This document shows, one piece after another, positions 3,473 to 36,992 of a DNA stretch of 38,538 nt (the stretch's first letter is position 1; each line of letters starts with the position of its first letter). The stretch is taken from positions 1 to 38,538 of the forward strand of contig JARKQF010000067.1 in the NCBI GenBank assembly GCA_029973975.1, in the 5' to 3' direction. Under the pieces are notes generated by a model. It saw only the letters and a list, made by a program, of their open reading frames with translations, was not told the DNA's origin and made no database searches. Both the position numbers and the translations under genes were made by a program. The stretch is from Paludibacter sp. (GTDB lineage: Bacteria > Bacteroidota > Bacteroidia > Bacteroidales > Paludibacteraceae).

Positions 3473-5734
3473 TTATTTTATTTTCACGTCAAACAATTGC
3501 AGCCATCCCGTAGCAGTTATGTTCTCTTTTGCCGATATTTGAATTCCGGGTACATTGTTTTTAGTTACATCCACAATGGCAACAACCCATTTATACAAAC
3601 CGGCAGGAACTCCGCTGATTGATGTTGTAAACACATAAGAAGAAGGCGTACCTTTCAGCCATTTTGACAAATCAGTCTGGTTATCGACCATGCTGGTAAC
3701 CACATTGCCGTTTCCATCCATCAAGCCAAAAGCAACTTTATATTTCTGATTCCATACCGGAATGTTGGCTGGACAATATCCCCAACCCAGATTATTCCAC
3801 CGGTGCGCTATTGTTATCATAGAACCACTATTTACTTCTTTAGGAAGTGATAAACGGTCAGGATAAAGTCGATAACCTCCTTCGGCAATAAATTCCTTAA
3901 CCAAATTAAATGAGGATTCAAACCATGTATTGACCTCATTAATGCGAAAATCCATCGTGTTTACACGGGCTTCCTTAGAGTCATCGAACTCACCCTGCCG
4001 GACATCGGCTACCGTTACATAGCCGCGTGGGTCGTTCCACCAACTGTGCGAGTTGGTAACCCATCCGCCTTCCATGATAACCGGTCGTTTGAAAACCCAT
4101 TTGGCTGCGATATTTTTTTCCCATTGCTGGTAATAATCCGTCATGCCAAATGCATCCTGACGCAATACATATCCTTTGCTGAACGCATATTCCAGAAGTC
4201 TTTCCGACTCACTGTCAGGACTTCCCCAACTTTTCTCCGTACCGATAAGTCTGTGGTAATTAATAGCCAATGGAATTTTAGTGAAATGTTTTGCATACAA
4301 ATCAACCACCCATTTGAGTACACTTTCCCTATTCGAATAATTCTTATATCTCATATTATGGGCTTCGCCCCACAAACCCAGGCCAAAACCATCGATAAAG
4401 TCAACCGCATCCGGATCATTAAACTTTTGGGCAAAAGCTTCCACGAATTTTGCATATTTCGCCTGAAAAACCGGATCATCGGGATAAGGAGACCAACGTT
4501 GATTATTCGAACCTGAAGTAAAGCCCTCTGCACCTGCGTCCTTCACATATTTAGGCGTAAAATCCTCACTTTTATCCCTGCTGTCAACAACAACCCGGAA
4601 AGCCAACCGCATTCCTCTCTGGCGTGCGTTATCAATCATCCATTTAAGTCCGGTGTTTGTATTCCAGCCATAAACTCCTTCACTCGGATTTAAGGCCGTC
4701 CAGCTTGTACGGATATAGAGCGTATTGGCATAATCAGCAATCTGAACAGGATTACTTACGCCGGGAACACTTATATTATCAAGTTTGGTCCAAAAGTCGG
4801 ATGCCGACCCCGGACTTCCGTAAAGCACCCATCCGGTCAATGGATTACGCAGATTTTTCCCGGTTTCCGGCTCTATCGTTACGATGTAATTCCCCGTTAT
4901 TTCATTATCAGCAGCTAAAGTATTTTTACCGCTCCAGGTAACTGTATACTGATTTATCGAGATATCAGTGGGTTTTTGGGCCAGAATTTCATGTCCATGA
5001 TAGAGATTCCAGTTAAGTTCCGGATTACAGACTGCATAATTGAACGAACCTGCCACATTGCTTATTTCCCTTTGATATGAAGTAAATTGATAATTAACAA
5101 CCAAATCCGGATTGTTCTCTTCAATATGCTTTCTGAAATTTGTTTTTATTTCATCTGCCGTGCGGGCTGTTTTCCAAACACGCACATCAGCTATTTTTCC
5201 GTAGAGCTTGGGGTCGCTGTACCAACTTCCAATCGCCAGGGCAATATTGGAATTGCCAATCCATCCTCCGGTAGCTGTCGTCGCACTATAAAGGTTCCCA
5301 TTCACATAAGCGTATGCCTTATTTTCCGCTTCTGAAACAACAAAAGCCAAATGTCCCCATTTCCCGGTAAACTCGCTTACAGGAATAAAAAACAAGATGT
5401 TTGCTTTTTGCGGATTAACAGCAAAAAAGCGTATCTCCAGCGCGTTATTATTCTCCGCATTTTTTCTTAAACTTAAAAGTACTCCCCGGTTGTTGCTATC
5501 CATGGTTCCCAGAATAGTCATTTTTTCTGTTTCGTTTTTCCCTTCAGCCATATTCAGCCAGAGTTCAAGCGTCATCGATTTTTCCGTGAATGTAAGCGGA
5601 GTCCCTGTAATCCCGTTGTGTCCGGTTTTTAACTCCCAGGCACAAAAATCGTCCGAAGCGTAAGACATTACGCTCAGCAAGACCAAAGTAACGGTCAACA
5701 AAAACGATTGAACGAGAAAATCAAATTTCTTCAT
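3473..5734 (-). CDS. Secreted LamG + DUF4874/DUF4832-type protein, putative glycoside hydrolase
   Basis: A 753-residue protein with a signal peptide (about 1-26), a LamG domain (about 28-235) related to those of the two downstream genes, a short linker, then a region of about 450 residues (about 296-753) homologous over its full length to the lipoprotein encoded near SusE. This region matches what I know as DUF4874 plus DUF4832. It looks like a TIM barrel with a C-terminal beta-sandwich. Acidic residues conserved between the two paralogs are Glu457 in GLWGEAHN, Asp527 in LRQDAFGMTDYYQ and Glu555 in VIMEGGW. The two glutamates, on strands far apart, recall the acid/base and nucleophile of clan GH-A. 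Unlike its neighbours it has no C-terminal sorting domain and ends in GWLQLFDVKIK. Glycosidase activity is inference. Confidence 0.75.
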   Translation of the reverse strand: MKKFDFLVQSFLLTVTLVLLSVMSYASDDFCAWELKTGHNGITGTPLTFTEKSMTLELWLNMAEGKNETEKMTILGTMDSNNRGVLLSLRKNAENNNALEIRFFAVNPQKANILFFIPVSEFTGKWGHLAFVVSEAENKAYAYVNGNLYSATTATGGWIGNSNIALAIGSWYSDPKLYGKIADVRVWKTARTADEIKTNFRKHIEENNPDLVVNYQFTSYQREISNVAGSFNYAVCNPELNWNLYHGHEILAQKPTDISINQYTVTWSGKNTLAADNEITGNYIVTIEPETGKNLRNPLTGWVLYGSPGSASDFWTKLDNISVPGVSNPVQIADYANTLYIRTSWTALNPSEGVYGWNTNTGLKWMIDNARQRGMRLAFRVVVDSRDKSEDFTPKYVKDAGAEGFTSGSNNQRWSPYPDDPVFQAKYAKFVEAFAQKFNDPDAVDFIDGFGLGLWGEAHNMRYKNYSNRESVLKWVVDLYAKHFTKIPLAINYHRLIGTEKSWGSPDSESERLLEYAFSKGYVLRQDAFGMTDYYQQWEKNIAAKWVFKRPVIMEGGWVTNSHSWWNDPRGYVTVADVRQGEFDDSKEARVNTMDFRINEVNTWFESSFNLVKEFIAEGGYRLYPDRLSLPKEVNSGSMITIAHRWNNLGWGYCPANIPVWNQKYKVAFGLMDGNGNVVTSMVDNQTDLSKWLKGTPSSYVFTTSISGVPAGLYKWVVAIVDVTKNNVPGIQISAKENITATGWLQLFDVKIK

Positions 5735-5767: not shown

Positions 5768-6277
5768 CTATCGTATTGCTATTTTTTGATTGTTAATCAG
5801 GTATATTCCTTTTTCAAGACCTCTTACGATTGTCTCTCCTTTTGATAAACCGACATTGCGCTTGAGGCTGCCATCCAGACTGAAAATTTTCACCAACTGC
5901 TCCACTTCCGAAATTATTTTCAGGGTTTGATTTTCACATTTAAATACCAGATTGCTAACCAACCAGGGATTAAATGTGGTAGTTGATGTCAGGGTGAAAA
6001 CACCGGAACTGACCCAGCCGGAGTAAACCATGTTGATTGTCCTGACTTTAACATAATACTCCACATTACTTTCCAGTCCTTCCAATGAAAATGAATTATC
6101 ATTCACAATTTCATTTTTAACTATCTCATCTGAGTTATTTCTGACAACCTGAATTTCCCATAAATCATTAACTCCATCCCAACTGATCATATCATTAGCA
6201 TTCAGAAACGAAGGCCATTGCGTCAGAAAAATCATGGCCAGCATGGTGGTATGCAATGCATAATTCCGATTTTTCAT
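5768..6277 (-). CDS. Small secreted FnIII-like protein with T9SS-like sorting domain
   Basis: About 169 residues from the ATG at 6277. The reading frame stays open to a TTG at 6304, but the methionine at 6277 gives a cleaner signal peptide (about 1-25). The mature part is one FnIII-like segment (about 26-105) and a C-terminal domain (about 110-169) containing FSLDGSLKRNVGLSKGE and ending in GIYLINNQKIAIR. This corresponds to the last 150 residues of the LamG proteins further down the operon. It has no catalytic or LamG domain. It may be a trimmed member of this cassette family or a small surface binding protein. Its function is unknown. Confidence 0.65.
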   Translation of the reverse strand: MKNRNYALHTTMLAMIFLTQWPSFLNANDMISWDGVNDLWEIQVVRNNSDEIVKNEIVNDNSFSLEGLESNVEYYVKVRTINMVYSGWVSSGVFTLTSTTTFNPWLVSNLVFKCENQTLKIISEVEQLVKIFSLDGSLKRNVGLSKGETIVRGLEKGIYLINNQKIAIR

Positions 6278-6308
6278 AATAATATTGATTTTAAGATTCT
6301 TCAAAGGG

Positions 6309-8516: not shown

Positions 8517-8540
8517 TTGACTATTGTTCATAATATTTTT

Positions 8541-12048: not shown

Positions 12049-12094
12049 TTTCTCTTCTTTTCCCTTTTTTCTGTTTTTATTTTTTTTCATTCTC

Positions 12095-20782: not shown

Positions 20783-22846
20783 TTACTTTATGATTGTATA
20801 TTCGTACAAAACAAAATCGTTGATGCGTGGTAATTCTATTTCAATTACTCCCTTTCGTCCGATGGTCTTTTTTACTTTCTTTCCATTACCGAGCACCGGT
20901 TTACAACTGATTTTTGTTCCTTCTTCAAACCAGGTCTCAACATATCCTTGCTTATCAGGGTTATTCTCACGGAAGAAAAGCAGATAGCCTTTTTTACCAT
21001 TTAATGACTGGAAACCCGTCCACGATTTTCCGGATGGTTCATCGCCTATCGGCAGAATTATGCCTGAATGGAAATCGTGCTGAATACTTTTATATTTGTT
21101 TATCAGAGTCTTAATGCTTAGCGCTTCATCAGGTAATCCGCTACCTTCAAACCAGGCCAGCGGTTGTCCGGCCATGGTGATGGCAAACAGGTATTCAAAT
21201 GAATAATTTGCCGGAGCAAACGGATCATTGTTGTATTTATCGGCATTGCGCCATTTATTTAAAAATTCGATTTGCAGCTTCTCGGCGGGTACATATTTCG
21301 CCAGTTGCCACAAATTGCGTAGCGTATGGTACGGATAATAATTTCCCCAGTCGGTATAGCGATTTTCGAGGAAGATATTACCATATTCGTTAAACGTATG
21401 ATAACCAGCCCGTCGTCCGGCTGTGGCATCCAGATTGAAAACAGCATTGTTATTTGTTCCCTCCAACACTTTGTCGAAAAGCTTTTTAAGGTTTTTTTCC
21501 GATTTTTTTGCCGGTATAGCGAGTCCATCTATCTTGAAAGTACGTATTCCGTATTCATTGTACAAATCTATCATTGCCTGAGCATCCTTTTCCCAATCGG
21601 CATAATCGTGCTGAACACTTGGATTAAACCACAGACAAACTTCAACGCCTAACTCTTTAGCCCTTTTCACAATAGGATGTAATCCCCGTGGATATTTTAC
21701 CGGATCGGGTTTCCAGTAATCAGGATTATCCCAGATGTTTTTGAACGAGCCTTTGGCAATAGCCGAGTTAGGGCTTCGGCCTGCCTGCCAGCCATCGTCA
21801 ATCTGAAAATGCGTCATTCCCAGTTCAGCAGCCCGCTCGACTTCAATCAGGCTGAACTTCTCATTCACTTTCGAGTCCTGACTGCGGTCGCCCCAGGTAT
21901 TCATCATCACCATTTCGTCTCTTTCGGACAAAAGCCTGCGAAGGTTTTTCTGATAGCTACGCAAAGCGCTTAACTGTTCCAACTCTCCACCGTTATAAAT
22001 CCCTGTGACCACACCATAGGTTTTCACCCATTCATCTTTTTTCAGGTCGTGTTCGTTAATGCCCAGCCCCGTGACCGTAAAATGTCCGAATTCGGCAGTA
22101 AAATCGTTTCCATTGTACGCCAGTTGTACACTTGAGCAGGGAGCTTCTTTCAGGAAGAAGAATCCTTTCTCTTCCGTCGGATTATGTGCAAATAAAAGAT
22201 TGCCACGGTAAGAGTTTTTACGGTAAGGAATTACGTTGGTTTCAAAAACGAGGTTATTATTCCAATCGGTAACATCATAAAATTCGACTGTTTTCATTTG
22301 CCAATGATTTCCCCCCGGATTGAACTGATCAAGAATGGCAGTAACCTGCTTTGTTTTCATATCTTCCGCGAACTCGATGTTCTTTTTATCAGCCAGATTC
22401 TCGGTTCTTCCTCCGAACACACTGTTGCTGTAGCCTTTCAGATAAGTGTCACAAGCAATCACCGGACTATTCCCGTAAACCCGGAAAACTCGTTTTATAT
22501 CAAGTTCATCAAGAGTAAACGACACGGTAGTCTCCCAATAAGCCGGATGAATAGCATTCTCTTTTATTTCCTGAGCATTGAAAACCGCATTAATCGCTTT
22601 GGGCGTGTTATTGGAAATATGGAAATCCGGTCGCTTATTCTTATTATACCAAACATGGTTCCCTACTTTATCAGTAAGGCTGTAAGTAATCAGATTCCCG
22701 TCGTTCCATATAAATTTCCTTTCCACCAACGAATTTCCGATAACGAGGGTATCATTTTGCAACCGGCTATAGTAATTCTTCTGAGAATTAGCCGGAAAAC
22801 AAAAAGCAACTATGATGAATAAGATGATTAATTTGAGTTTTTCCAT
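20783..22846 (-). CDS. GH36-like alpha-galactosidase (clan GH-D)
   Basis: A 687-residue exported enzyme with a signal peptide (1-22). An N-terminal beta-sandwich of about 300 residues precedes a TIM barrel beginning MMNTWGDRSQD. The barrel contains HFQIDDGWQ, VCLWFNPS, Asp440 in RTFKIDG as likely nucleophile and Asp499 in NRYTDWGNYYPY as likely acid/base. Two aspartates with a DDGW motif are typical of clan GH-D (GH27/GH31/GH36). The N-terminal domain is unlike classical melibiases, so it may belong to a divergent GH36 branch or a related unclassified family. Its presence beside GH97 gives the locus two independent alpha-galactosidase-like folds. The exact linkage is unknown. Confidence 0.8.
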   Translation of the reverse strand: MEKLKLIILFIIVAFCFPANSQKNYYSRLQNDTLVIGNSLVERKFIWNDGNLITYSLTDKVGNHVWYNKNKRPDFHISNNTPKAINAVFNAQEIKENAIHPAYWETTVSFTLDELDIKRVFRVYGNSPVIACDTYLKGYSNSVFGGRTENLADKKNIEFAEDMKTKQVTAILDQFNPGGNHWQMKTVEFYDVTDWNNNLVFETNVIPYRKNSYRGNLLFAHNPTEEKGFFFLKEAPCSSVQLAYNGNDFTAEFGHFTVTGLGINEHDLKKDEWVKTYGVVTGIYNGGELEQLSALRSYQKNLRRLLSERDEMVMMNTWGDRSQDSKVNEKFSLIEVERAAELGMTHFQIDDGWQAGRSPNSAIAKGSFKNIWDNPDYWKPDPVKYPRGLHPIVKRAKELGVEVCLWFNPSVQHDYADWEKDAQAMIDLYNEYGIRTFKIDGLAIPAKKSEKNLKKLFDKVLEGTNNNAVFNLDATAGRRAGYHTFNEYGNIFLENRYTDWGNYYPYHTLRNLWQLAKYVPAEKLQIEFLNKWRNADKYNNDPFAPANYSFEYLFAITMAGQPLAWFEGSGLPDEALSIKTLINKYKSIQHDFHSGIILPIGDEPSGKSWTGFQSLNGKKGYLLFFRENNPDKQGYVETWFEEGTKISCKPVLGNGKKVKKTIGRKGVIEIELPRINDFVLYEYTIIK

Positions 22847-22858
22847 GGATAATAAGCA

Positions 22859-24748
22859 TTATTCTTTTAAAGCTCTGGGCGTTTTTAAAAATCTTTGTTC
22901 ATTAAAGCGTTGATTGTCGGGGATATTTTCTTTTTTCCCGGCTCCTTCCTGCATCATTTTTTTCAGTTCATCCAGATACTGTTGATAAACTTTACGGGGA
23001 GTTGCATCGTGTTTCTTACACAGTGCCGCAGCCATTCCCACTACTTCACCCATCATTCCGGTAGTACGCATAACCCTTACGGTACCCAGCGCGACATGCG
23101 TTACACTTATGTTTCGTCCGGCCATAAAAAGATTATCTATATTCCGCGAGTAAAGGCAGCGGTAAGGCACTGCATGCGGATAAATCTGAATATGCTTGGT
23201 AGCAGCTTTAAACTCAGCCCCGGGAAACTTTTTGGAGTTTTCCGGATCCGGGAAGTGAAGGTCGATACTCCAGGAAGAAGTAAATGAAGCATCTTCATGA
23301 AAGACATTTTTGTCAATATCGTCCTGTTTTAATATATAATCGCCCAGTAATCGCCGGGATTCTCTTTTGCCTGCAATACATGCGACCCAGTCAAGTTCCC
23401 GGTTTTGATATGCCGCATTATCTTTCAATTCGTTTTTCAGAAAGCTCCAGTTGGAATAAACAACCATAAGTCCGTAATCACGTATACGCTCAAAATCATC
23501 GATTTGATTCAGATTCATCCCCGTTTCCCATTTCCATTCACCCATGGTTACTTTTTCGCAATTATCTTCATTGAACACTACGCCGTATTTGAATTCCGGA
23601 AAATTGGTCTTCCTGTCTGTTTTCTTTGAATACCATTGTACCGAAGAACCCATCGTCATTTTGTCGGCAATTTCAGGAGCAAGTTCTTCCCCGAATTCGT
23701 CGCGGCTTTCACGCCCCATGCTATAATCAGCTCCGGCAAGATAACCGATTGTTCCATCACCCGTACAATCAGAAAACAAAGGGGCTTTCAACCGCATCTC
23801 TTTTCCACTCTCAATATGTTTGATAATCACAGAAGCAATTTTATTTCCATCCATTTCAACAGCGATGGCACGGTAATTTGAGTATAGCGTTACGTTTTCT
23901 TCATTTGCAATAAACTCACTTTTCTTCTCGTCTTCGTAATAGGATCCCGGTTGAGCATTTCCGGATTTTGAATGTCCGAACTCACGGATGATGCGTCCGA
24001 GGCCTTTATTGGGACCTAATTCGATACTTCCGCCCAGATGAACCCTGATTTCGGAACTGTTATTTCCACCCAGAACCGGACGGTCATTAATCAGTGCAAC
24101 TTTACAACCCGACCGGGAAGCCGTAGCCGCGGCACACATGCCGGCAATACCCCCGCCCACAACAACAAAATCGAAAGATTCAGTTTCTGCAGGACTTTCA
24201 GGTATATTTAGTTTTACTTTCCTGAATCTGCTCAGTTCTTTCACATCCGAAGGCGGCATTTTATCACCTTCGGTTGTAAAATAAACAGCATCACATCGGC
24301 CATTGAATCCGGTCAAATCAACTAAGGAAACGGTTGCATCAGTTTTATTGATTTTCACCTTTCCTGCATATTGCCAATACCATCCGGAACCTTCCGATCC
24401 TAATACAACCGGCAGTGTTTTATTATTTACATTTAATGTAAACTTACCCGGACCTTCGGCTGTTGTCCAAGGTGATGTCCAATTGAAAGTGCGCACATAA
24501 ATATGATAGGTTCCTCTTTCGGGAAATTTTACAGTCGTTGAAGCATCGGCAACAGGATTACCCATACCATGAGCTATCAAATAAGGAGATCCCATCTGAT
24601 CCATAAACTGCTGATCAAGTATCCACCCGCCTTTATTTTCAAAACTCTCGGCTTCGACCAATATATCGGCAGCAAACGATGTCGCATACAAGAATACCAA
24701 CAAAGCAACCAATAATATCCTTTTTATGTGTTTTTTCAATTTCATCAT
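22859..24748 (-). CDS. Exported FAD-dependent oxidoreductase with N-terminal golvesin/xanthan-lyase-type sandwich
   Basis: A 629-residue protein with a Sec signal peptide (about 1-27) and no twin-arginine motif. Residues 28-160 form a beta-sandwich (VEAESFENKGG, GTYHIYVRTFNW, DAVYFTTEGD) of the type often annotated as golvesin/xanthan-lyase carbohydrate-binding. Residues 190-600 are an FAD-binding oxidoreductase of the PF12831 kind: Rossmann motif GGGIAG at 198-203, RPVLGGNNSSEIRV, DCTGDGTIGYLAGAD, and a C-terminal FAD motif around NLFMAGRNISVTHVALGTVR. Genes of this family are common in Bacteroidota PULs but I know no settled reaction. Oxidation of a sugar hydroxyl is a possibility, as inference only. 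Its place in the operon ties it to the same glycan. Confidence 0.85.
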   Translation of the reverse strand: MMKLKKHIKRILLVALLVFLYATSFAADILVEAESFENKGGWILDQQFMDQMGSPYLIAHGMGNPVADASTTVKFPERGTYHIYVRTFNWTSPWTTAEGPGKFTLNVNNKTLPVVLGSEGSGWYWQYAGKVKINKTDATVSLVDLTGFNGRCDAVYFTTEGDKMPPSDVKELSRFRKVKLNIPESPAETESFDFVVVGGGIAGMCAAATASRSGCKVALINDRPVLGGNNSSEIRVHLGGSIELGPNKGLGRIIREFGHSKSGNAQPGSYYEDEKKSEFIANEENVTLYSNYRAIAVEMDGNKIASVIIKHIESGKEMRLKAPLFSDCTGDGTIGYLAGADYSMGRESRDEFGEELAPEIADKMTMGSSVQWYSKKTDRKTNFPEFKYGVVFNEDNCEKVTMGEWKWETGMNLNQIDDFERIRDYGLMVVYSNWSFLKNELKDNAAYQNRELDWVACIAGKRESRRLLGDYILKQDDIDKNVFHEDASFTSSWSIDLHFPDPENSKKFPGAEFKAATKHIQIYPHAVPYRCLYSRNIDNLFMAGRNISVTHVALGTVRVMRTTGMMGEVVGMAAALCKKHDATPRKVYQQYLDELKKMMQEGAGKKENIPDNQRFNEQRFLKTPRALKE

Positions 24749-24769: not shown

Positions 24770-26338
24770 TTATTTCACCTGAACGTCGAGTAGCTTAACC
24801 CAGCCCTCATTCGTTGTTTCATCATTTACGGCAAGCTTTATCGCCGGTTTATTTTCTTTTTGTGTATCCACAATAGCCACAGCCCATTTATATTTTCCGG
24901 CAGGAAGATTTACCTTTGTTTTAAAATCATAGACTTTAGGGTTGTCCTTCAACCAATCCGACGGTTCGCAAATCTTATCAACAAATACCTCTTTTACATT
25001 GTCTTCCGAATCCAACAGTGCAAAGGCTACTTTGTATTTAAAGTTCCATTGCGGAATATTATTAGGAAAATAACCCCAACCCATATTCCTCCAGCGGTGA
25101 TTTATTTTCGCCTCCTGGCCGGAGTTTACATTTTCGGGTAGATATATCTGGTCGGGATAAAGGCGATATCCTCCTTCGGAAACAAAGCTTTGTACAAGGG
25201 AGAAACTGGAAGTAAACCATGTTTCGGTTTCATAACCAGCCCTGAAATCCATCATATTAACGTGTGCTTCTTTCGAAGCTTCAAATTCTCCCAACCTTAC
25301 ATCTTCCGGGTGTCCTTCGCGATATTTACCGCTCGGATCAATCCAATATCTGTGTGTTCCGCCGGTAATCCAGCCACCCTCCATAATGATTGGTCGTTTG
25401 AAGTTCCATGCTTTGGCAAAGTTCTTCTCCCAGGTTTGGTAATAATCAGTCATACCGAAAGCATCTTGTCTGAGGCTATACCCTTTGCTGATCGCCAAAT
25501 TCAATAAGGTAGCGCTGTTCTCGTTGGCTGCCCCCCAGCTTGACGGATGACCTACTACACGGTGATAATTGATAACCAAAGGTACTTTTGTGAAGTTTTT
25601 ACTATATAAATCAGTAACCCATTCAAAAACTTCCAGTTTAAGTTTTTCTGTATTCTCGGTAACTTTTTCGCCTACACTTTCGTATATCACATTATGTGCT
25701 TCTCCCCATTTACCCAGACCATAAGCATCAATAAACGCTGTGCGGTCCGGGTCGTTGAAGTCCTCAGCCAGCGCTTCGATAAATTTAGTATAGTATTGTT
25801 TGAAAACCGGATCCTGAGGGTATGGTGTTCTTCTGGTCGGATAGTTTGCATCCTGCAAATAATACTTAGCTCCGGCATTGAACACCCATTCGGGCGTATT
25901 CATTCCCTGATCACGTCCGTCAACCACAATACGGAAAGCTATCGGCAGACCTCTCCGCTCTGCACCCTTGATTAAGTTTCCCAATCTCGAATTCGGATCT
26001 CTCCAGGTATACACGCCATCACTGGGATTGAGCGAAGACCAGCTAGTACGGATATAACAAGCCGATGCATAATCACTGACTTTAACCGTTTTAGCTATAT
26101 CAGAAACCCAGAATTCCGTATCCCAATAGGATTCATTAGCATCGCGGGCAGCATACATCACCCAACCGTTCAAAGGATTTTTAAGCACCTTGGTTTTATT
26201 GTATTTCAACTTCATCAGTGTTCCCGTTACATTGCCATCATCAGGCAAATCTGTTGAGCAGGAACAGGCCGCAAAACACAAAAAAGTAACAAGAACACTA
26301 ATAATCATCAAATTACCATTCACACTTATCTTATTCAT
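24770..26338 (-). CDS. DUF4874/DUF4832-type lipoprotein, putative glycoside hydrolase
   Basis: A 522-residue protein with a lipoprotein signal (likely Cys25 in FAAC). The mature region is homologous along its length to residues 296-753 of the LamG fusion protein later in the operon: NPLNGWVMYAA, YIRTSWSSLNPSDGVY, GKWGEAHN, SLRQDAFGMTDYYQTW, RPIIMEGGW, GGYRLYPDQIYLP, RWRNMGWGYFPNN. Candidate catalytic residues by position and conservation are Glu213 and Glu320, with Asp292 nearby. The C-terminal part (from about 390) looks like a beta-sandwich. As the first gene after the SusCDE block it may work at the cell surface. No characterised relative is known to me. Confidence 0.78.
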   Translation of the reverse strand: MNKISVNGNLMIISVLVTFLCFAACSCSTDLPDDGNVTGTLMKLKYNKTKVLKNPLNGWVMYAARDANESYWDTEFWVSDIAKTVKVSDYASACYIRTSWSSLNPSDGVYTWRDPNSRLGNLIKGAERRGLPIAFRIVVDGRDQGMNTPEWVFNAGAKYYLQDANYPTRRTPYPQDPVFKQYYTKFIEALAEDFNDPDRTAFIDAYGLGKWGEAHNVIYESVGEKVTENTEKLKLEVFEWVTDLYSKNFTKVPLVINYHRVVGHPSSWGAANENSATLLNLAISKGYSLRQDAFGMTDYYQTWEKNFAKAWNFKRPIIMEGGWITGGTHRYWIDPSGKYREGHPEDVRLGEFEASKEAHVNMMDFRAGYETETWFTSSFSLVQSFVSEGGYRLYPDQIYLPENVNSGQEAKINHRWRNMGWGYFPNNIPQWNFKYKVAFALLDSEDNVKEVFVDKICEPSDWLKDNPKVYDFKTKVNLPAGKYKWAVAIVDTQKENKPAIKLAVNDETTNEGWVKLLDVQVK

Positions 26339-26452: not shown

Positions 26453-27676
26453 TTATTTTTTCTTGGCCAGGATGGTCTTATTCCTCAAATCGAACACAAT
26501 GAAATTGGTTCCTGCAGGAAGTTTGTAATAAGAGTTACGTGTTTCACCATCATAGCCTCCATGCAATTCACCTACTTTGTCCAACGCGAGTGACAGATTT
26601 TGTCGTTTACCTTCTGTAGTCAGAGGATTAGTAAAGCAATACGCGGTATTTCTGAAATCGCTCTCACCGTACACAACGAATTTCACACCATCACCACTGG
26701 TCAGAGCAGCTCCCTGATAAATAAGCACCTGAGGGTCGGCCAAACTTACCGAACAATTACCTTTCCACCAACCCCAGCCGGTTCCACCACCAAACAACCA
26801 CAATTCAGAAACAGTAGTTTGTACTTCTTCTGTACCTTTTAACCATGTAACAACAGCAGGTTCAAGCGCTTTAGCAGGTGAGTAAATGGTAACTTCTGAA
26901 TTCTCAAAATCTACAACAACACGATATTCACCTGCTGTTGTAATATTCCATGCAATACGATCATCTTCTTGCTGTACAGCTTCTGCCTCTCCATCCAACA
27001 AAGTACCTTCACCGTCTTTAGGAATCATATAATATTGTTTATCTCCGGTTGTAACCAAAGGCATTACCAATTCCCCGACTTTCAGATTAACTAATGCTGC
27101 ATATTTGTTTTCATTCTCTATGGTCTTACTTAGTTCAATTACTGCATCATTCAATGAACTTCCGGATAAAGTTACTTTCTCCGGCACCGGAATTTCCTCT
27201 TTTACAGCAGCAACATTAACAGTCACTGTACGAACTTCGGGGGCTTCGAATGTAGAACCGCCTTCCCATTGGGCTATCACCCTGAATTCAAGTTTCAGAG
27301 GTTTGGTCAAAGGAACACTCCATCTGTCAACCATCCAGTTATACAATTGTTCGGAGGTAAAACTCCTGCTGAACACTCCTTCATCTTCTGAATTAACGAT
27401 CGCAGTAGAAGTACCGAAGTTATTTCCGACAACATCCAGTTTTGTTGTATAGAATACCATATTGTCTCCCGAAACCTCTCTGGCCTCAGTCCAGTCGAAC
27501 GTTAAGATAAACTCTCTGGGATTATCCAAATCAATGGCAATACTGTCAGCAGAAGCAGTAAGTACCAGTTTCTCTTCGACCTTCGCGATATCCTTTATTT
27601 CGTTGTCGCATGCACTAAAGCTTATTCCGACAAACAAGAAAGGCAATACCTTATATAAATTTATTATACTTTTCAT
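26453..27676 (-). CDS. SusE/SusF-like outer-membrane lipoprotein
   Basis: About 407 residues from the ATG at 27676; an upstream ATG at 27697 overlaps the SusD stop (TAATG) and would add seven residues. The lipoprotein signal has Cys23 in GISFSAC followed by the acidic stretch DNEIKD, compatible with surface export. The N-terminal part (LVLTASADSIAIDLDNPREF) is typical of the SusE N-terminal domain. The C-terminal half has SusE/SusF-type starch-binding-like folds with GGGTGWGWWKGN and TNFIVFDLRNKTILAKKK. It probably binds the target glycan beside the SusCD transporter. It is positioned directly after susD, as expected. Confidence 0.85.
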   Translation of the reverse strand: MKSIINLYKVLPFLFVGISFSACDNEIKDIAKVEEKLVLTASADSIAIDLDNPREFILTFDWTEAREVSGDNMVFYTTKLDVVGNNFGTSTAIVNSEDEGVFSRSFTSEQLYNWMVDRWSVPLTKPLKLEFRVIAQWEGGSTFEAPEVRTVTVNVAAVKEEIPVPEKVTLSGSSLNDAVIELSKTIENENKYAALVNLKVGELVMPLVTTGDKQYYMIPKDGEGTLLDGEAEAVQQEDDRIAWNITTAGEYRVVVDFENSEVTIYSPAKALEPAVVTWLKGTEEVQTTVSELWLFGGGTGWGWWKGNCSVSLADPQVLIYQGAALTSGDGVKFVVYGESDFRNTAYCFTNPLTTEGKRQNLSLALDKVGELHGGYDGETRNSYYKLPAGTNFIVFDLRNKTILAKKK

Positions 27677-27696
27677 GTGTTTAAATTTTATTTCCA

Positions 27697-29346
27697 TTAT
27701 TTATCATATCCCGGATTCTGAGGGAATTCGGCATCACGGTTAGCGTCGATTATAGATTGAGGAATAGGCCACAGCACATCATTCTCAGTAATCTTATCTT
27801 TTATACTGGTATTATAAGCTTTAACCCTGTCTACCAGTTTTCCGGTACGTACCAATGTGAAGCGGCGGCTTTCTTCACCTACCAATTCACGTATACGTTC
27901 ATTGAGTAATTCATCCATGGTCATGTTAGCAGCGTCAATATCAGGAGCTCCGGCACGCCGACGTACTTCATTGACTGCATTAGCAGCTTTTTGCGGATCA
28001 TTCTGCCCCAGATAAGCTTCAGCAAGTAACAAATAGGTTTCAGACAAACGAAATTTCATCCTGTCCCTGTAACTTCCGGTAAGACTTAGATTTTCTACAC
28101 GTCCGTAAAAGAATTTGGTCAATGCAGGGAATAATTGCTTCGTCGAGAACCAAGTTTGCTCCGTTATATTACATTTTTTACCATACAAGGAGGCATTGCT
28201 TGTATTGTTATAATACCAGTTACGTTTGATATTATAATTTGAATTACGTATATCATTCGCATGAAAAATACCCGGAACATTGCCATCTGCATTAGTGCCT
28301 CCGGTACCAATCCACCATTTCATAGGGACAATCTGAGCAATGCCACGACCACCTAATGTGTCGGCTAAAACAAAGCCTGTTATTGTTGAATAGTTGGGAA
28401 TCCATGCCCTGCGTGTCCAGTCGGTAGAATTAGTACCTCCTCCAATTGCATTAAATTCAAGCTGCAGCACCCAGATACTCTCTTTATTACCGCTACCCCT
28501 GTTTTGATTGTTTTCAACAAACAGGTCACTGAATACATCGCCCGGTTTATCCTTGTTTACACCATAGCGATTTTTCATCAATCCGTAATATTTACTATTA
28601 ATTACTTCCAAGGCCGCTTTTTCTGCCAATACATATTCTTTCTGGAACAGGTACATTTCACTTAGCAAGTGATATGCAGCCCATTTGGTTAACTTTCCGT
28701 CTTTAACCTGGTCGGGATTCTCCGGCAAGTGTTCGGTTGCAAACTTCAGGTCATCAATTATATGTCCCAACACCTCAGCTTTAGGAGTACGGGTAAAATC
28801 GAGTTTAAAGTCATATAATATTGTTTCTACATACGGCACATCCCCAAAAAGATAAATCAGCGTACGATAAGCATAAGCACGGAAGAAACGGGCTTCAGCC
28901 TGATAGTGTACCTTATCGGCAGGTGAATCCCAATTTGTATTCTTCTCGGAGAAAAGCAAGATTTCATTTGCTGATGAAATCAGACTGTATGCCCAGTTCC
29001 AATAGGAGCCCACAAACCTTTCTTCAGGTGTAAGTGTCAGATTAGCAAATGCCGTCAGAGAACCGTCACTGTTAATTGCCTCAACAATGTCTGTCGCGAC
29101 ATGCAATGCTTCGTACGGACAAGCATTCCCATGCATATAAGCATCTTCCTCTCCCCATGTATTATATTCGGCACGGGCAAGCGCGTAAAGACCAGTAGAA
29201 CAAACTTCAAATCCATACGTGCTGGTTAAAGTATTATTGGGAGATAAAGTTGACTTTAAATTTTCATCAAGAAAACCCTCACAGCCTGTCACAAAGATCA
29301 TTAACACGAACAAAAGCCCTGATTTTATATAATTAATTAATTTCAT
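27697..29346 (-). CDS. SusD-family glycan-binding lipoprotein
   Basis: About 549 residues from the ATG at 29346, 11 bp after the SusC stop. The frame is open to 29418, but that extension lies inside susC. The lipoprotein signal has Cys22 in MIFVTGCEGFLDE. The SusD signature is clear: NWAYSLISSANEIL, YQAEARFFRAYAYRTLIYLFGDVPYV and the C-terminal RLSETYLLLAEAYLGQNDPQKAANAVNEVRRRAG TPR-like region. It forms the lid of the SusC channel and binds the oligosaccharide at the cell surface. Together with SusC it marks this locus as a polysaccharide utilization locus. Confidence 0.95.
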   Translation of the reverse strand: MKLINYIKSGLLFVLMIFVTGCEGFLDENLKSTLSPNNTLTSTYGFEVCSTGLYALARAEYNTWGEEDAYMHGNACPYEALHVATDIVEAINSDGSLTAFANLTLTPEERFVGSYWNWAYSLISSANEILLFSEKNTNWDSPADKVHYQAEARFFRAYAYRTLIYLFGDVPYVETILYDFKLDFTRTPKAEVLGHIIDDLKFATEHLPENPDQVKDGKLTKWAAYHLLSEMYLFQKEYVLAEKAALEVINSKYYGLMKNRYGVNKDKPGDVFSDLFVENNQNRGSGNKESIWVLQLEFNAIGGGTNSTDWTRRAWIPNYSTITGFVLADTLGGRGIAQIVPMKWWIGTGGTNADGNVPGIFHANDIRNSNYNIKRNWYYNNTSNASLYGKKCNITEQTWFSTKQLFPALTKFFYGRVENLSLTGSYRDRMKFRLSETYLLLAEAYLGQNDPQKAANAVNEVRRRAGAPDIDAANMTMDELLNERIRELVGEESRRFTLVRTGKLVDRVKAYNTSIKDKITENDVLWPIPQSIIDANRDAEFPQNPGYDK

Positions 29347-29357
29347 GTATTTTTGAT

Positions 29358-32300: not shown

Positions 32301-32387
32301 TTGCGAAGCCGCATACATCTGTAAAACAGAGAAAAGAGACAAAGCCGCGATCACTAAGCGATTTTTTAATTTTCTGTGTATTTTCAT
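29358..32387 (-). CDS. SusC-family TonB-dependent outer-membrane transporter
   Basis: A 1009-residue protein with a signal peptide (1-28). A carboxypeptidase-regulatory-like domain (about 33-110, VNGKVVDGNGDALVGVTV) precedes a TonB box region (DEVVVVGYGTQRKKDLTG), the plug (about 120-230, with IIIRGVNSLTADNSPLIILDGIPY) and a 22-strand barrel ending in an aromatic C-terminus (MLGLNINF). There is no N-terminal STN signalling domain, which fits control by an HTCS rather than an ECF sigma/anti-sigma pair. It imports the oligosaccharide captured by SusD. It is the first gene of the operon, with a 289-bp leader region in front. Confidence 0.96.
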   Translation of the reverse strand: MKIHRKLKNRLVIAALSLFSVLQMYAASQQDVIRVNGKVVDGNGDALVGVTVRVKDGTVGTITDFDGKFTLQVPPASTLVFSYVGFIAQEIKVNTSGVVNVTMKEGDALLDEVVVVGYGTQRKKDLTGGLSVVGKEQLEMVSTSNLMDRLVGQVAGLNITTSNAAPGSDQSIIIRGVNSLTADNSPLIILDGIPYSGSLVDFDPNIIESLSVLKDASAVAIYGSRGSNGVILIQTKRGVVGKPQVSYKGQFGFSEPMQRIQVMGPNEFIRFKQDIGRLKNGYSGDQLDPITGNIISLSERENFINGVTHDWQDYIFQTGYTMDHQIGISGGTENTKYMAAISYLDEDGVVYNSNLNRSNISANIDQTFNKWLTIGVGTQFIQKENGGITPNIEHAIKQSPYGKYKDEAGYYVAEPMEYSLITNPMINVNADQDRTSRNFFLNAYANILFPIKGLSFRMNYGYNYRSGFTGTYYGRDTYEGREQGGLVGGKASISNSHYNDYTWENILRYEREIGNHRFDVTGLFSTQETKSISSSQSGEGFVVDDTSYFMMGTAERKQSISSGITETAMLSYMLRLNYAYKGKYMATLTGRSDGASVFAKNYKYAFFPSAALAWHLGEESFIKDNVEWMDMLKLRASYGANGNQAIIAYRTLDRLYSKVKYIWGDGGAAVNTAYLPGDGIGNPNLKWETTYTANIALDFQFFKGRLGGTLEAYLSNTHDLLMDRSVPIMNGYNRIMDNIGQTRNKGIEITLNTVNVKNRDFNWSTDLNFSLNRDKIIELRDDKRDDISNKWFIGEPLRVFYDYNVIGLWQKDDEYFYTDDNGVQKSIQAGAAPGAAKVEDVDGNGYIDAKDKKVIGSKLPDFTMSMGNKLTYKQLYFSFLVNGVFGVWREDNVANVGSWAYSTTNYVHGANYWTPENTDADIVSPGYVNTLGHGYYKKQTYVQIKNITLGYNIDRKLVNKLHLSSVNVNLSINNLHTFSNMRQILNYDNGWMASYPTARSYMLGLNINF

Positions 32388-32662: not shown

Positions 32663-32691
32663 AAAAAAAGAAGTCTTCATGACTTCTTTTT
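32663..32691 (-). terminator. Intrinsic terminator at the end of the HTCS gene
   Basis: An 11-bp stem (arms 32681-32691 and 32665-32675) with a 5-nt loop is followed on the minus strand by a run of seven T. The TGA stop of the HTCS gene (32677-32679) lies inside the loop, so the last codons form one arm. The hairpin is nearly symmetric and could act in both directions. It separates HTCS transcription from the susC promoter. Confidence 0.75.
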
Positions 32692-35600
32692 AAATTCCGA
32701 AGGAGTTAATTCGAAGTGTTTTTTAAAACAGACACTAAAATACTTGGGGTTTACAAATCCGGTTAAATCTGCTATTTCGGAAATAGTCAAATCCGATTCT
32801 TTCAACAACTGGGCGCTTCGTTTAAGCCGGATATCCATTATAAATTCTTTAATAGACATCCCTGTTATATCATTAATTTTTTGATATAAAAGCGTACGCC
32901 CGATTGCCATATCCGATACGAAAGACTCGACATTGTAATCACAATTGCTCATATTCTGTTCAATGTGCTCCATGGCCTTTTTCAACAATTTCTCATCCAT
33001 CGAAGATATTGTAACCTTAGATGGTTCCGCTATAAACTTCTTACTGTATAAATCCTTGAGTTCATTCTGGCTTTTTATCAGGTTTTCCACTTGCCTGAGC
33101 AGAAAAGTCATATCGAAAGGCTTATCGACAAACACATTAGCACCATACTCAAGCGCCTTAATCTTATCTTCGGTATTTTTACCTAATGCAGATAAAACGA
33201 TTATAGGGATGTGGCTGGTTTTAATATTGGAGCGAAGCGTGCGACAAACCTCGAATCCGCTTGCGCCTGGCATCATTAAATCGGTAATTACGATTTGCGG
33301 ATGGATCTTCTCGGTTTTCGCAATGCCTTCGTTACCATTTATCGCAGTGTAAACAGTGTAAGACTCAGACAGCCGTTGTTCCATATACGTTCTTAAATCA
33401 GGATCATCCTCAATAACCAAAATACTGTAGGCCTTGCGACTTCGCTTGTCATGCAGATTCATTTCTTCCGATTCTGCCAACACATTATCTATCTCGGAAA
33501 TTGTATACTCATACGAAACCACATTATTATCAGTCTTCGTTGTATTTAAAGCAAAAGGAAGAATGACAGTAAAAGTAACTTTCGAATCACCTGAATGCAA
33601 TGTAATTTTCCCTTCCAGGCTGGTCACCAACTCTCTCACAATGGCTAAACCAAGGCCAGTACTATCATCAAATGCAATTTTACCGGAAGTTAGACGATTA
33701 AAAGATTCAAAAATCTGCTCTTTTTTATCGTCAGGTATTTCTGCTCCGGTATTCGTTACTGCAATAGAAATATATTCAGCATCGGTTTTTGCCGGTAAAG
33801 AAAGCTTATTTACTTCTTCCGGGGTAGTTTTGTTAATCTTTACACCAACAAAACCATTCTCCGGACTATATTTTATAGCGTTTGAAAACAAATTCGTAAA
33901 GATTTTTTCTATCGCATCATGATCAAATTTTGTATAAATTTCTCCGGCATCGGCATTTATATCAGTCTCGATTCCCTTTTTGTTTGCATAAAGCTCGAAC
34001 AAGGAAAAAATATCTTTAACGTATTGAACCAAATCGCCGGGCTGATAATTGAAAGTTATTTTTTGACTCTCAATCTCCCTGAATTGGAGTAATTGACTGA
34101 TCATCCGTTGAATACGGCTCACATTTTTCTCTATAAGCTGTATGTAAGCATTCAACGATTTATCTTCCGGCAAATATTCTTTTAGTTGCTTTAATGGATC
34201 AATAACCAGCGTTAAGGGGGTTTTAAGGTCATGCGATATATTTGTAAAGAAATTGATGCGCGCCTGAGTCAGTTTTCTCATATTCTGTTCTTTAAGCTGC
34301 TCCATCTCAAGCCTGCTCTCGAATATTTTCTTATTGGTAAAATATCTCCAGATAAAATACACGACAAACATCAGCAAAATGGAGTAGATGATATACGCCC
34401 AAACAGAGAAGAAAGGCGATGGCTGAACATCGAAATACAAAGCTGAAACCTCATCTCCCCACAAACCATCATTATTCGCAACTTTCACCTCAAAGAGGTA
34501 ATTTCCTGCCGGCAAATTGAAAAACTGTATATTTTTTTGTCCCTGCGGCAGAAGATTCCATTCATCAGAAAGCCCCAACATTCTGTATGCATATTGATTT
34601 TTCTCGGCGTGCAAATAGCTGTTAGCCGAAACGCATATTTCTATATTAGATTGATTATGTGACAATATTATCTTATTGTTGCCATCTCCTTTATAGGAAA
34701 GGGTTGATATATCCTGCTTCAACGGTGAATTTTCGGTACCCGGAATAACCCTTTTATTATTGATTAATAAATCAGTAAAAAAAACGCCTGGTTTTTGATT
34801 GTTATATCTGATTTTATCGGGGGTAAACATAATAAAGCCGTCGGTGCCCCCAAACAACATTTCTCCCTTCGAGGTTTTGAAACATGATCGCACATAAAAT
34901 GCGCCGCAAAGCTTTAGATTATCTATTTGCGATTTATGTATACTCTTGGTTTTGTAATCATAATAATATAAACCGTTATTGGTACTGAACCAGATATTTT
35001 TTGAAGAGTTATCTTCCAGAATTCCGAAAACCGTTTTTCCAAACAGCCCGTCTTTCTCTGCAAAGTTTACATAAGTACCGTCCTTACTCAGCCTGTTTAT
35101 ACCTCCGCCACGTGTCCCGAACCAGATATCAGAATCAGATGTAATACAATAAGAGCAAAGATTGTTGACCGAATAAGGTACATTCTCTATAAAATAGCGT
35201 TTTACGATGCGTTTTGTTTTTACATCTATAATGTATGCTCCTTCATGCGTTACCAGCCACAGATTATTTCCTTTATTACGGAATAATGTTTCTACCTGCA
35301 TCTTAACAGGATTTCCCTTTGAATCGGATAAAGAAACAACCTGAATAACACCCGTTCTTAAATCTTTATACATTAGCTCGGAATCCGGGTCCGTCATCCA
35401 AATGCCAGAATCGCCTTCCATTGCAAAATCATATATACTAAGCTGTTGCGAAGTAACAGGGTGATACATCCGCATATCGGTGAAACGACCCTGTGCTTTA
35501 TTAAACTGCCCCATTCCTCCGTTGAACGCTGAAATCCGCAAGGTATTTCCTTTCTCGTCGTATCGCAACATTTTTATCATATTCGAGCTTACACCCGATT

Positions 35601-36774
35601 TATTTTCCTGTGTGTAATATGAAGTTACACCTGTCTTTCTGTTCCAGAAATTCACCCCGCCTCCTTCAGTACCAATCCACAGATTTCCATTTTCATCCTC
35701 TTCAAAACAGCTGACAATAGGATGATTTAGTCCACCCGGGGCTGCTTTAAAATAGTTCACATTATTGTCATAGAAAGTCATATAAGCCAGTTTCCCTCCA
35801 TAGGTTCCTATCCAGACACCTCCATCCGGGTCCGGATATATTGACCATATTGAATTATTGGGAATAGAGTAGGTATAATGGAGATTAAACCGAAGATGAC
35901 GCATCTCCGATGTAAGAGGATCTAACAGAAAAAGTCCTGATTGCGTGGCAACCCAGATGGTATTCGACGAATCGAGGAATAGTTTTTTCGTACTGGCCGA
36001 TTTTCCATATTCGCGTGCAAGACTGTGAAGTTGTATAAATTTTCCACTATTATCGTATTCATACAAACCACTCATGTGAGTAAGAATATAAACCGACTCG
36101 TTATATTCTATTATATCTCTTATTATATCTTTATTACCTAAAGTAGCAAATAAACCATATTGCCCGATCTTCTTATTTAGCCTGTACACTTTCCCGTTTG
36201 AACCGATATAGACGTCATCCTTATTGGTACATATCAGTGTTAATGCTGCAACATCGACGCCTGCGGGTAAAGGATAATTTTTTATGTCAGGCGATTGCCC
36301 CGGATGAAATGATTGAATTTTATTGTCTCTGATAAGCCACAAATCACCACCGTTATCTGATATAAGCCACCCTATATTTCCATCCAGAACGCGTTCAAAA
36401 TCCTGTGTGCGGTAATTGAACCGCAACAAACCATGATTAGTACCGACGTATAATCTCCCGGAATGATCTGTAACAACCTGTCCGTATGTCCAGTATGAAT
36501 CAGGCAAAAGCTTTGTAACAAAATCATTCATTTGGATGAATGAATTGCCGTTGTATACAAACAGCGCGTCGTATCCGCTAAACCATATCCGTCCGATGCT
36601 ATCCTTAACAATGCTATGTATGCCGCCATAATAAGAGGTTTCCGGCATGCTATGGAATCTATAATCTGAAATACTCAGGGTAAATCCGAAAAAAGGAAAG
36701 AAGATAAAAAACAATATAGTCGAAAGAAACCTCATTTTGTCACGTATTATCTTTAAAATTGTATTACTAATCAT
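32677..36774 (-). CDS. Hybrid two-component system sensor/regulator (HTCS) with AraC-type output
   Basis: About 1365 residues from the ATG at 36774, preceded by GGAGAGG; the ATG at 36735 is an alternative. The frame is open to 36957, but that start lies upstream of the likely transcription start. The order is: signal peptide, about 14 propeller repeats forming the periplasmic sensor (repeated IWFG and LWIGT motifs), a Y_Y_Y domain, a transmembrane helix (about 788-812, VWAYIIYSILLMFVVYFIW), HisKA with His848 in NISHDLKTPLTLV, an HATPase with N-box LFSNAIKYSPENG and G-box TGLGLAI, a receiver with Asp1165 in ITDLMMPG, and a C-terminal AraC-family HTH (TISEIADLTGFVNPKYFSVCFKKHF). It should sense an oligosaccharide of the target glycan in the periplasm and activate the susC promoter directly downstream. 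Confidence 0.95.
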   Translation of the reverse strand: MISNTILKIIRDKMRFLSTILFFIFFPFFGFTLSISDYRFHSMPETSYYGGIHSIVKDSIGRIWFSGYDALFVYNGNSFIQMNDFVTKLLPDSYWTYGQVVTDHSGRLYVGTNHGLLRFNYRTQDFERVLDGNIGWLISDNGGDLWLIRDNKIQSFHPGQSPDIKNYPLPAGVDVAALTLICTNKDDVYIGSNGKVYRLNKKIGQYGLFATLGNKDIIRDIIEYNESVYILTHMSGLYEYDNSGKFIQLHSLAREYGKSASTKKLFLDSSNTIWVATQSGLFLLDPLTSEMRHLRFNLHYTYSIPNNSIWSIYPDPDGGVWIGTYGGKLAYMTFYDNNVNYFKAAPGGLNHPIVSCFEEDENGNLWIGTEGGGVNFWNRKTGVTSYYTQENKSGVSSNMIKMLRYDEKGNTLRISAFNGGMGQFNKAQGRFTDMRMYHPVTSQQLSIYDFAMEGDSGIWMTDPDSELMYKDLRTGVIQVVSLSDSKGNPVKMQVETLFRNKGNNLWLVTHEGAYIIDVKTKRIVKRYFIENVPYSVNNLCSYCITSDSDIWFGTRGGGINRLSKDGTYVNFAEKDGLFGKTVFGILEDNSSKNIWFSTNNGLYYYDYKTKSIHKSQIDNLKLCGAFYVRSCFKTSKGEMLFGGTDGFIMFTPDKIRYNNQKPGVFFTDLLINNKRVIPGTENSPLKQDISTLSYKGDGNNKIILSHNQSNIEICVSANSYLHAEKNQYAYRMLGLSDEWNLLPQGQKNIQFFNLPAGNYLFEVKVANNDGLWGDEVSALYFDVQPSPFFSVWAYIIYSILLMFVVYFIWRYFTNKKIFESRLEMEQLKEQNMRKLTQARINFFTNISHDLKTPLTLVIDPLKQLKEYLPEDKSLNAYIQLIEKNVSRIQRMISQLLQFREIESQKITFNYQPGDLVQYVKDIFSLFELYANKKGIETDINADAGEIYTKFDHDAIEKIFTNLFSNAIKYSPENGFVGVKINKTTPEEVNKLSLPAKTDAEYISIAVTNTGAEIPDDKKEQIFESFNRLTSGKIAFDDSTGLGLAIVRELVTSLEGKITLHSGDSKVTFTVILPFALNTTKTDNNVVSYEYTISEIDNVLAESEEMNLHDKRSRKAYSILVIEDDPDLRTYMEQRLSESYTVYTAINGNEGIAKTEKIHPQIVITDLMMPGASGFEVCRTLRSNIKTSHIPIIVLSALGKNTEDKIKALEYGANVFVDKPFDMTFLLRQVENLIKSQNELKDLYSKKFIAEPSKVTISSMDEKLLKKAMEHIEQNMSNCDYNVESFVSDMAIGRTLLYQKINDITGMSIKEFIMDIRLKRSAQLLKESDLTISEIADLTGFVNPKYFSVCFKKHFELTPSEFKKKS

Positions 36775-36904
36775 TTTACCTCTCCGACAGTATCTATTAA
36801 ATTCACAAAGCTTTTTGCTCAATAGAATTGATGAGGAAGTGTACATTCCATTCAAAATGTACTTCTTATTTCTGAGGGTGTTAATAATATCTTTAAGAGG
36901 GGAG

Positions 36905-36935
36905 CAAAGATATATTATTTGCTCAACCGGACAAA
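36905..36935 (-). promoter_or_regulatory. Promoter of the HTCS gene
   Basis: On the minus strand, TTTG (36932-36935) is separated by 19 nt from TATCTTTG (36905-36912). This is an exact match to the Bacteroidota sigma-ABfr pattern. It predicts a transcript start near 36898 and a leader of about 124 nt to the ATG at 36774. This also argues against translation from the open-frame methionine at 36957. Confidence 0.7.
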
Positions 36936-36992
36936 ATTTCTTTCTATTTTTATTCATTGTTGTCCGGTAAACATTTTATAACATCGATTTCT

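Follow-up and report, generated by a model that had tools for sequence, protein, structure and literature searches.

The DUF4832 protein SIR_1591, encoded in the pel operon of Streptococcus intermedius, disrupts preformed Pel aggregates once purified, and the available text of a 2025 report describes it as an active glycoside hydrolase (GH) with likeness to beta-amylases and beta-galactosidases and with a predicted location at the cell surface (PMC12345266). Excerpts of other studies place DUF4832 genes next to pel operons (PMC7112168) and list a rumen-culture protein that combines DUF4874, DUF4832, and a dockerin (PMC7480376); the term also occurs in a Klebsiella genome paper (PMC6258164). 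The DNA considered here (the window) spans one entire contig, C183, with 38,538 bases, from a 358-contig assembly of a Paludibacter sp. with an estimated completeness of 85.7%. Its locus is a polysaccharide utilisation locus that encodes two proteins which look like remote relatives of this kind, the lipoprotein B1 and the larger protein B2. The best explanation of the pair, to which a probability of about 0.68 is given, is that both are active glycoside hydrolases, with B1 acting as the first cutter at the cell surface and B2 as its exported partner. From outside the locus, SIR_1591 offers the best support, by analogy, that members of the superfamily are catalytic, and the original prediction, which was made from the sequence of the window and knew of no activity for these domains, is in this respect out of date for the superfamily (PMC12345266). 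B1 resembles SIR_1591 in its expected surface location; the latter differs in acting on the biofilm polymer of a Gram-positive organism, in its predicted transmembrane anchor, and in a substrate rich in N-acetylgalactosamine, and it is related to B1 through the DUF4832 label rather than through direct sequence comparison.

That the two proteins are paralogues which align end to end and share motifs, as had been claimed, is borne out by direct comparison. Residues 26-522 of B1 and 268-753 of B2 are 49.6% identical over 502 columns (expect value, E, 2.5e-167; 52% in a separate genome search), both open reading frames (ORFs) lie on the minus strand, and the stretches GEAHN, QDAFGMTDYYQ, and IMEGGW are common to both. 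A search of the assembly with B1 (E<=0.001) returned the places of B1 and B2 only. The accompanying label of DUF4874/DUF4832-type proteins stands in part. DUF4832 (PF16116) scores 21.4 bits in B1 and 20.4 bits in B2, below the gathering cut-off of 29.2, and DUF4874 (PF16173) finds no match in B1 at E<=10 or in B2 at E<=0.001; among 23 relatives scanned with Pfam, DUF4832 appears in 21 at E<=10 (best 5.9e-7) and DUF4874 in one (E 0.13). Profile comparison and Foldseek nevertheless assign B1 and B2 to the DUF4874/DUF4832 superfamily, as a branch that has diverged from the canonical proteins; B-type proteins represent a family that now scores below Pfam cut-offs and whose substrate class is testable.

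The genome itself encodes two canonical DUF4874+DUF4832 proteins, on contigs C95 and C300, and DUF4874 matches nowhere else in it. A profile of nine canonical proteins, these two included, was compared with a 23-row profile of the family to which B1 and B2 belong (the B family). In global mode the two profiles match at E 3.2e-7, and at 1.3e-12 when the intermediate proteins L025 and L026 are added, while 11 control families from the same loci reach E values of at least 0.16 against the same two profiles. In local mode the match has E 3.8e-4 with a probability of 36% and covers the C-terminal half only, a weak result because the best control (SusE) reaches E 0.002; adding the intermediates brings it to E 3.2e-6. 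The intermediates on their own, as a profile of two rows that are 80% identical, missed the canonical family in global mode (E 0.49, best control E 0.039); their match to the B family extends over 230 columns, with E 2.4e-11. L025 and L026 themselves, for which Pfam gives nothing at E<=1, form a bridge between the B family and the canonical proteins. The fold shared with DUF4832 was found in a viral library, where the best Foldseek match of the whole B1 model is a DUF4832 protein (E 5.8e-20, template modelling (TM) score 0.59 to the query, root-mean-square deviation 10.4 A). B1 and the canonical proteins have in common the WGE motif after strand 4, an Asp after strand 6, the Tyr of a GYR motif, the N of an NP.G motif, and the C-terminal beta domain; they differ in the Pfam results given above, and the region of strand 7 lacks a confident alignment.

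Relatives were gathered by a scan of genome contigs that detects close peptide patterns only, and they come from 21 loci, all in Bacteroidota: Pedobacter, Dysgonomonas, Paludibacter, Bacteroides, Prevotella, Alistipes, Cryptobacteroides, and other Bacteroidales. The nearest relative found is a Paludibacter gene (L015) whose product is 87% identical to B1. In sampled genomes the family is rare: it was present in three of 296 genomes of a phylum-wide sample, namely the genome under study and two with the remote intermediates, and in three of 395 genomes of a class-wide sample, again counting the genome under study. Within limits set by the fetched flanks and by contig ends, a B gene lies at most 200 bases after a SusE-like gene in 14 of the 21 loci, SusC or SusD is found within the flanks in 15, and two or three B genes occur in seven, with several copies in the Bacteroides genomes L021, L022, and L023. 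A tree with a midpoint root only puts B1 and B2 in two separate groups; because each of these spans several genera, the duplication looks old. The galactosidase locus of Bacteroides xylanisolvens (beta-1,2-galactosidase; PMC11739564), chosen as a comparison by enzyme fold match, was set aside, as its available description has GH35 beside GH144, unlike the neighbours in L021.

The original prediction expected a TIM barrel with two glutamates at strands 4 and 7, and the models agree with it. In the AlphaFold model of full-length B1, a complete (beta/alpha)8 barrel (residues 50-392, approximately) is followed by a C-terminal beta domain (about 393-522), and the model has a mean predicted local distance difference test score (pLDDT) of 86.7 and a predicted TM score (pTM) of 0.85; the barrel alone (residues 50-392) gives pLDDT 87.3 and pTM 0.89. 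The predicted strands, with helices between them, are 58-64, 91-99, 133-138, 200-204, 254-257, 287-291, 317-321, and 362-366. Glu213 accordingly sits in the loop after strand 4, preceded by Gly212 and nine residues beyond the strand, and Glu320 in strand 7. Both are invariant in all 32 rows of the family alignment, which include six named Bacteroidota families and in which 30 sequences differ within the barrel. Further invariant residues include Asp140, Asp143, His215, His259, Asp292, and Asp364; Asp292 was not named in the original prediction. Glu213, Asp292, and Glu320 of B1 correspond to Glu457, Asp527, and Glu555 of B2, and four alignment methods find Glu213 and Asp292 also kept in all nine canonical proteins and in both intermediates. 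B1 and B2 are probably glycoside hydrolases.

Comparison with solved structures bears on which kind of hydrolase they might be. Among the best 50 of 261 Foldseek matches for the whole model (E<=0.001), a GH5 endoglycoceramidase and GH35 beta-galactosidases are at the top and PslG stands at rank 27; among the best 50 of 305 for the barrel alone, the first five are all Bacillus cereus GH14 beta-amylase, closely followed by GH35 and GH5. The barrel matches 1veo (GH14) at E 2.4e-10 with TM 0.60 to the query, a root-mean-square deviation of 6.0 A, and 13% identity. In clan GH-A, an Asn-Glu pair ends strand 4 and a catalytic Glu lies in strand 7; the predicted B1 barrel shares with GH35, the GH5 endoglycoceramidase, and PslG the (beta/alpha)8 fold, a Glu after strand 4, and a Glu in strand 7 that is a candidate catalytic residue in B1, and it differs in having Gly rather than Asn before a Glu that lies nine residues past the strand. 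GH14 is the best solved fold for the barrel, different from B1 in its low identity and in that PF01373 (GH14) is not among the Pfam families of 23 members at E<=10, nor present in the genome at E<=0.001; a search of 395 Bacteroidota genomes with PF01373 gave weak partial matches in six. The original assignment to clan GH-A is thus too narrow, because the best solved matches of the barrel are GH14 and then GH35 and GH5, and the better label should be an unassigned 4/7-type barrel, nearest to GH14 and GH-A. More tentatively, and at less than even odds, the proteins might form a new GH family that joins two lines of 4/7-type barrels: the acid site, G-x-x-G-E after strand 4, would be of the beta-amylase type, and the barrel would otherwise be close to GH35 and GH5. 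It would be a Bacteroidota pair whose surface copy opens acidic arabinogalactan-like polymers and whose exported copy carries on from there, with frequent duplication and occasional fusion to LamG or SGNH-type DUF4886.

One alternative follows from the same matches, namely that the enzymes are GH14-like, act by single displacement with inversion, with Glu213 as the acid and Glu320 as the base and perhaps on an alpha linkage, and are not retaining GH-A enzymes. The five leading barrel matches suggest this, as does the G-x-x-G-E stretch around Glu213, which we take to resemble the GH14 active-site signature. Against it, GH35 and GH5, which are retaining, stand close behind in the barrel list and lead for the whole model. 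SIR_1591, likened to beta-amylases, acts on Pel aggregates that, in the excerpt of its report, are dispersed by alpha-1,4-N-acetylgalactosaminidases as well (PMC12345266), which is in keeping with a GH14-like mechanism. The lack of any PF01373 match in the 23 members or in the genome at the thresholds given argues in the other direction, and this mechanism is held as a possibility somewhat short of an even chance.

The cutting mode and even catalysis itself can be read differently. B1 and B2 might be exo-acting or linkage-specific side-chain enzymes, the backbone being cut by an enzyme encoded elsewhere; GH14, GH35, and GH42 are mostly exo-acting, and the window is a whole contig, so that further genes of the locus may lie outside it. 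This is unlikely, though far from negligible, given that the Pfam scan of the other proteins of the window shows no canonical endo-enzyme or lyase and that B1 looks lipid-anchored and adjoins SusCDE. The same observations bear on the original proposal that the proteins are the missing endo- or linkage-specific enzyme: the setting in a polysaccharide utilisation locus and the Pfam result favour it, and the endo role of B1 is plausible but unproven. B1 might also lack catalysis altogether and use a dead hydrolase barrel to bind glycans at the cell surface. The position after SusE is common for surface glycan-binding proteins and is the one that B genes take in 14 of 21 loci; the invariance of both glutamates and of Asp140, Asp143, His215, His259, Asp292, and Asp364 in 32 rows and six named families is, however, hard to explain on a dead barrel, and a remote relative, SIR_1591, is reported active (PMC12345266). 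A dead barrel is accordingly regarded as quite improbable.

Several points weigh against reading the pair as active hydrolases. In the sequence alignments Glu320 was not paired with a Glu of the canonical proteins, in which a different Glu, within a GET motif, is invariant; one of the four methods puts a Glu there in two of nine canonical rows. Of the invariant charged residues, seven fall in the 136 residues of the catalytic-face loops, five in the 46 of the strands, three in the 96 of the helices, and none in the 41 of the back loops, and the concentration on the catalytic face relative to the back loops is not significant (p 0.15). The TM scores are modest: the barrel reaches 0.60 at most, and the whole model scores 0.33-0.39 against the glycosidases listed. 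A sequence search of the PDB with the family profile found no chain at E<=10. The sole phmmer match of B1 to a solved structure was an arginase at E 0.95, taken as chance. The B genes of L008 and L009 show no lipobox by the pattern used and no preceding SusE. To our knowledge no activity is known for the B1/B2 branch, and the literature searched, with partial coverage, shows no study or activity of this Bacteroidota branch; nor did the searches made turn up a different function already assigned to the family, which the original prediction had named as a result that would count against it. Finally, in the available text of its report, the evidence for SIR_1591 is aggregate dispersal without products, and its deletion is without an aggregation phenotype (PMC12345266).

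If B1 and B2 are active hydrolases, the substrate would be bound at the C-terminal face of the (beta/alpha)8 barrel, where Glu213 would serve as the general acid and Glu320 as the nucleophile or general base with Asp292 assisting, and the C-terminal beta domain would be structural or carbohydrate-binding. B1, as a surface lipoprotein beside SusCDE, would be the first to cut an arabinogalactan-like heteropolysaccharide that bears uronic acids and perhaps acetyl groups. SusCD would import the pieces, and the GH2, GH43, GH88-type, GH97, GH36-like, and GH3 enzymes of the locus, which we take to be exo-acting, would finish them. B2, exported by an ordinary signal peptide, may act on pieces in the periplasm or outside. 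Surface endo-enzymes are described, in the accessible part of a study of such systems, as opening polysaccharides, arabinogalactan included, for SusCD import (PMC8406133). New polysaccharide-opening activities tend to come from settings like this one, where a conserved lipoprotein adjoins SusCDE and the locus shows no canonical endo-enzyme. Given the predicted fold, the candidate catalytic residues, the several Bacteroides copies, and a remote relative that is reported active, one enzyme screen could assign the family.

The neighbouring enzymes and DUF4886 together point to the nature of the polymer. The closest solved structures to the GH43 protein are 6eug and 6euf, deposited as beta-glucanase and presumably exo-beta-1,3-galactosidases, with galactan 1,3-beta-galactosidases among the next matches, and the GH97 protein is close to the alpha-galactosidases 3a24 and 5e1q. 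The GH2 protein at 16957-18738 is nearest to 6d8k, whose activity is unstated, and then to a beta-galacturonidase and beta-glucuronidases; the GH88-type protein lies near GH88 and unsaturated glucuronyl hydrolases. Ten neighbours chosen from the relatives' loci include GH28, a glucuronyl-esterase-like protein, an alginate-lyase-type protein (in L005, beyond the regulator and so perhaps of the next locus), two GH88 proteins, and an acetyl xylan esterase, the rest being without such a hint. DUF4886 belongs to the SGNH superfamily and, in the available text of a 2022 review, has no known function (PMC9487903). An acidic, perhaps acetylated, galactose-containing heteropolysaccharide such as arabinogalactan is thus plausible. 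Relatives of the GH88-type protein occur in three of 21 loci and of the GH43 protein in none, and so either the substrate varies from species to species or these genes may lie beyond the flanks.

The proposed compartments differ in part from those first suggested, in which one copy was lipid-anchored and the other secreted. An anchored copy remains the likely reading, as B1 has, by a simple pattern and by eye, the lipobox FAAC followed by SCSTDLPD. B2 has by eye an ordinary signal peptide, no lipobox, and no type IX sorting tail at E<=1, so that secretion is one option only and it may instead reside in the periplasm. Among relatives, the lipobox is followed by acid-rich stretches such as CKKDEPEE (L005) and CSDEEGG (L010), which we take to be surface-export signals in Bacteroidota. 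In L018, L021, L022, and L023, inspection by eye finds no convincing lipobox in one copy, whereas CSDDNDDE or CGSDNDEE is present in another, and B2 resembles the unanchored kind. The simple pattern finds a lipobox in 22 of 32 rows. Among these it counts the VSLC of the first copies of L021-L023, here read as part of a signal peptide; judged by eye, the pattern both misses and over-calls, and localisation is thus a reading and not a count.

The LamG half of B2 is 43% identical to residues 31-269 of the neighbouring LamG protein and ends at 269, the B half starting at 268, while the short ORF at 5768..6304 corresponds, at 35% identity, to the half of that LamG protein which is missing from B2 (residues 260-401). 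This ORF also has weak matches, below cut-off, to fn3 and to a type IX sorting tail. The arrangement would be explained if tandem LamG genes had recombined and a B gene had been captured in the process. Jointly, the LamG half and the short ORF match one complete LamG protein, as if it had been split and permuted around the captured enzyme. LamG, which B2 is known to carry, occurs in a single one of the 23 rows scanned. Another fusion is seen in Prevotella (L020, 2154-5864), where a protein of 1237 residues starts with DUF4886 (SGNH-type) and continues with a B-type enzyme domain, an arrangement suited to deacylating and cleaving one and the same polymer.

Transcription of the locus (Table 1) runs from the regulator through SusC, SusD, SusE, B1, the flavin adenine dinucleotide (FAD) oxidoreductase, and the glycosidases to the fn3 ORF, B2, LamG, and DUF4886-LamG; the minus strand carries 19 of the 20 ORFs followed in the window.

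Table 1. Genes of the window in order of transcription, with the codons of candidate active-site residues listed under B1.
Feature	Position	Strand	Remark
Hybrid two-component regulator of the locus	32677..36957	minus	
SusC	29358-32387	minus	Outer-membrane import unit; SusC, SusD, and SusE together lie directly upstream of B1
SusD	27697-29418	minus	Outer-membrane import unit
SusE	26453-27697	minus	Outer-membrane import unit
B1	24770..26338	minus	Lipoprotein of 522 residues, candidate surface glycoside hydrolase
Glu213 codon, B1	25700..25702	minus	WGE motif, loop after strand 4; candidate general acid
Asp292 codon, B1	25463..25465	minus	Just after strand 6
Glu320 codon, B1	25379..25381	minus	Strand 7; candidate base or nucleophile
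FAD oxidoreductase	22859-24748	minus	PF12831 from residue 193
GH36-like	20783-22846	minus	
GH97	18757-20763	minus	
GH2	16957-18738	minus	Near beta-glucuronidases and beta-galacturonidase
GH2	14485-16935	minus	
GH88-type	13231-14430	minus	
GH43	12095-13231	minus	Near presumed exo-beta-1,3-galactosidases
GH2 (third)	9313-12162	minus	
GH35 beta-domains only	8541-9308	minus	
GH3	6309-8531	minus	
Short ORF, fn3-like	5768..6304	minus	
B2	3473..5734	minus	753 residues; N-terminal LamG (about residues 29-269) and B1-type enzyme copy (268-753)
LamG protein	2094-3302	minus	
DUF4886 (SGNH-type)-LamG	12-2030	minus	

Three of the neighbours stand out in their own right. The FAD oxidoreductase between B1 and the glycosidases has an extra N-terminal part of about 190 residues, and relatives of it occur in four of the 21 loci. 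The GH36-like protein has a weak Pfam Melibiase match (E 3.7e-7) and matches one solved alpha-galactosidase (E 6.2e-4), and its relatives lie beside B genes in seven of the 21 loci, one of them as a partial match of 35%; it is possibly another under-described glycosidase. The protein of 255 residues at 8541-9308 consists of just the BetaGal_ABD_1 and galactose-binding beta domains of GH35, without the barrel. The idea that it is a broken GH35 gene was dropped, as stand-alone copies of 256-264 residues occur in five of the 21 loci, each between GH2 and GH3 genes.
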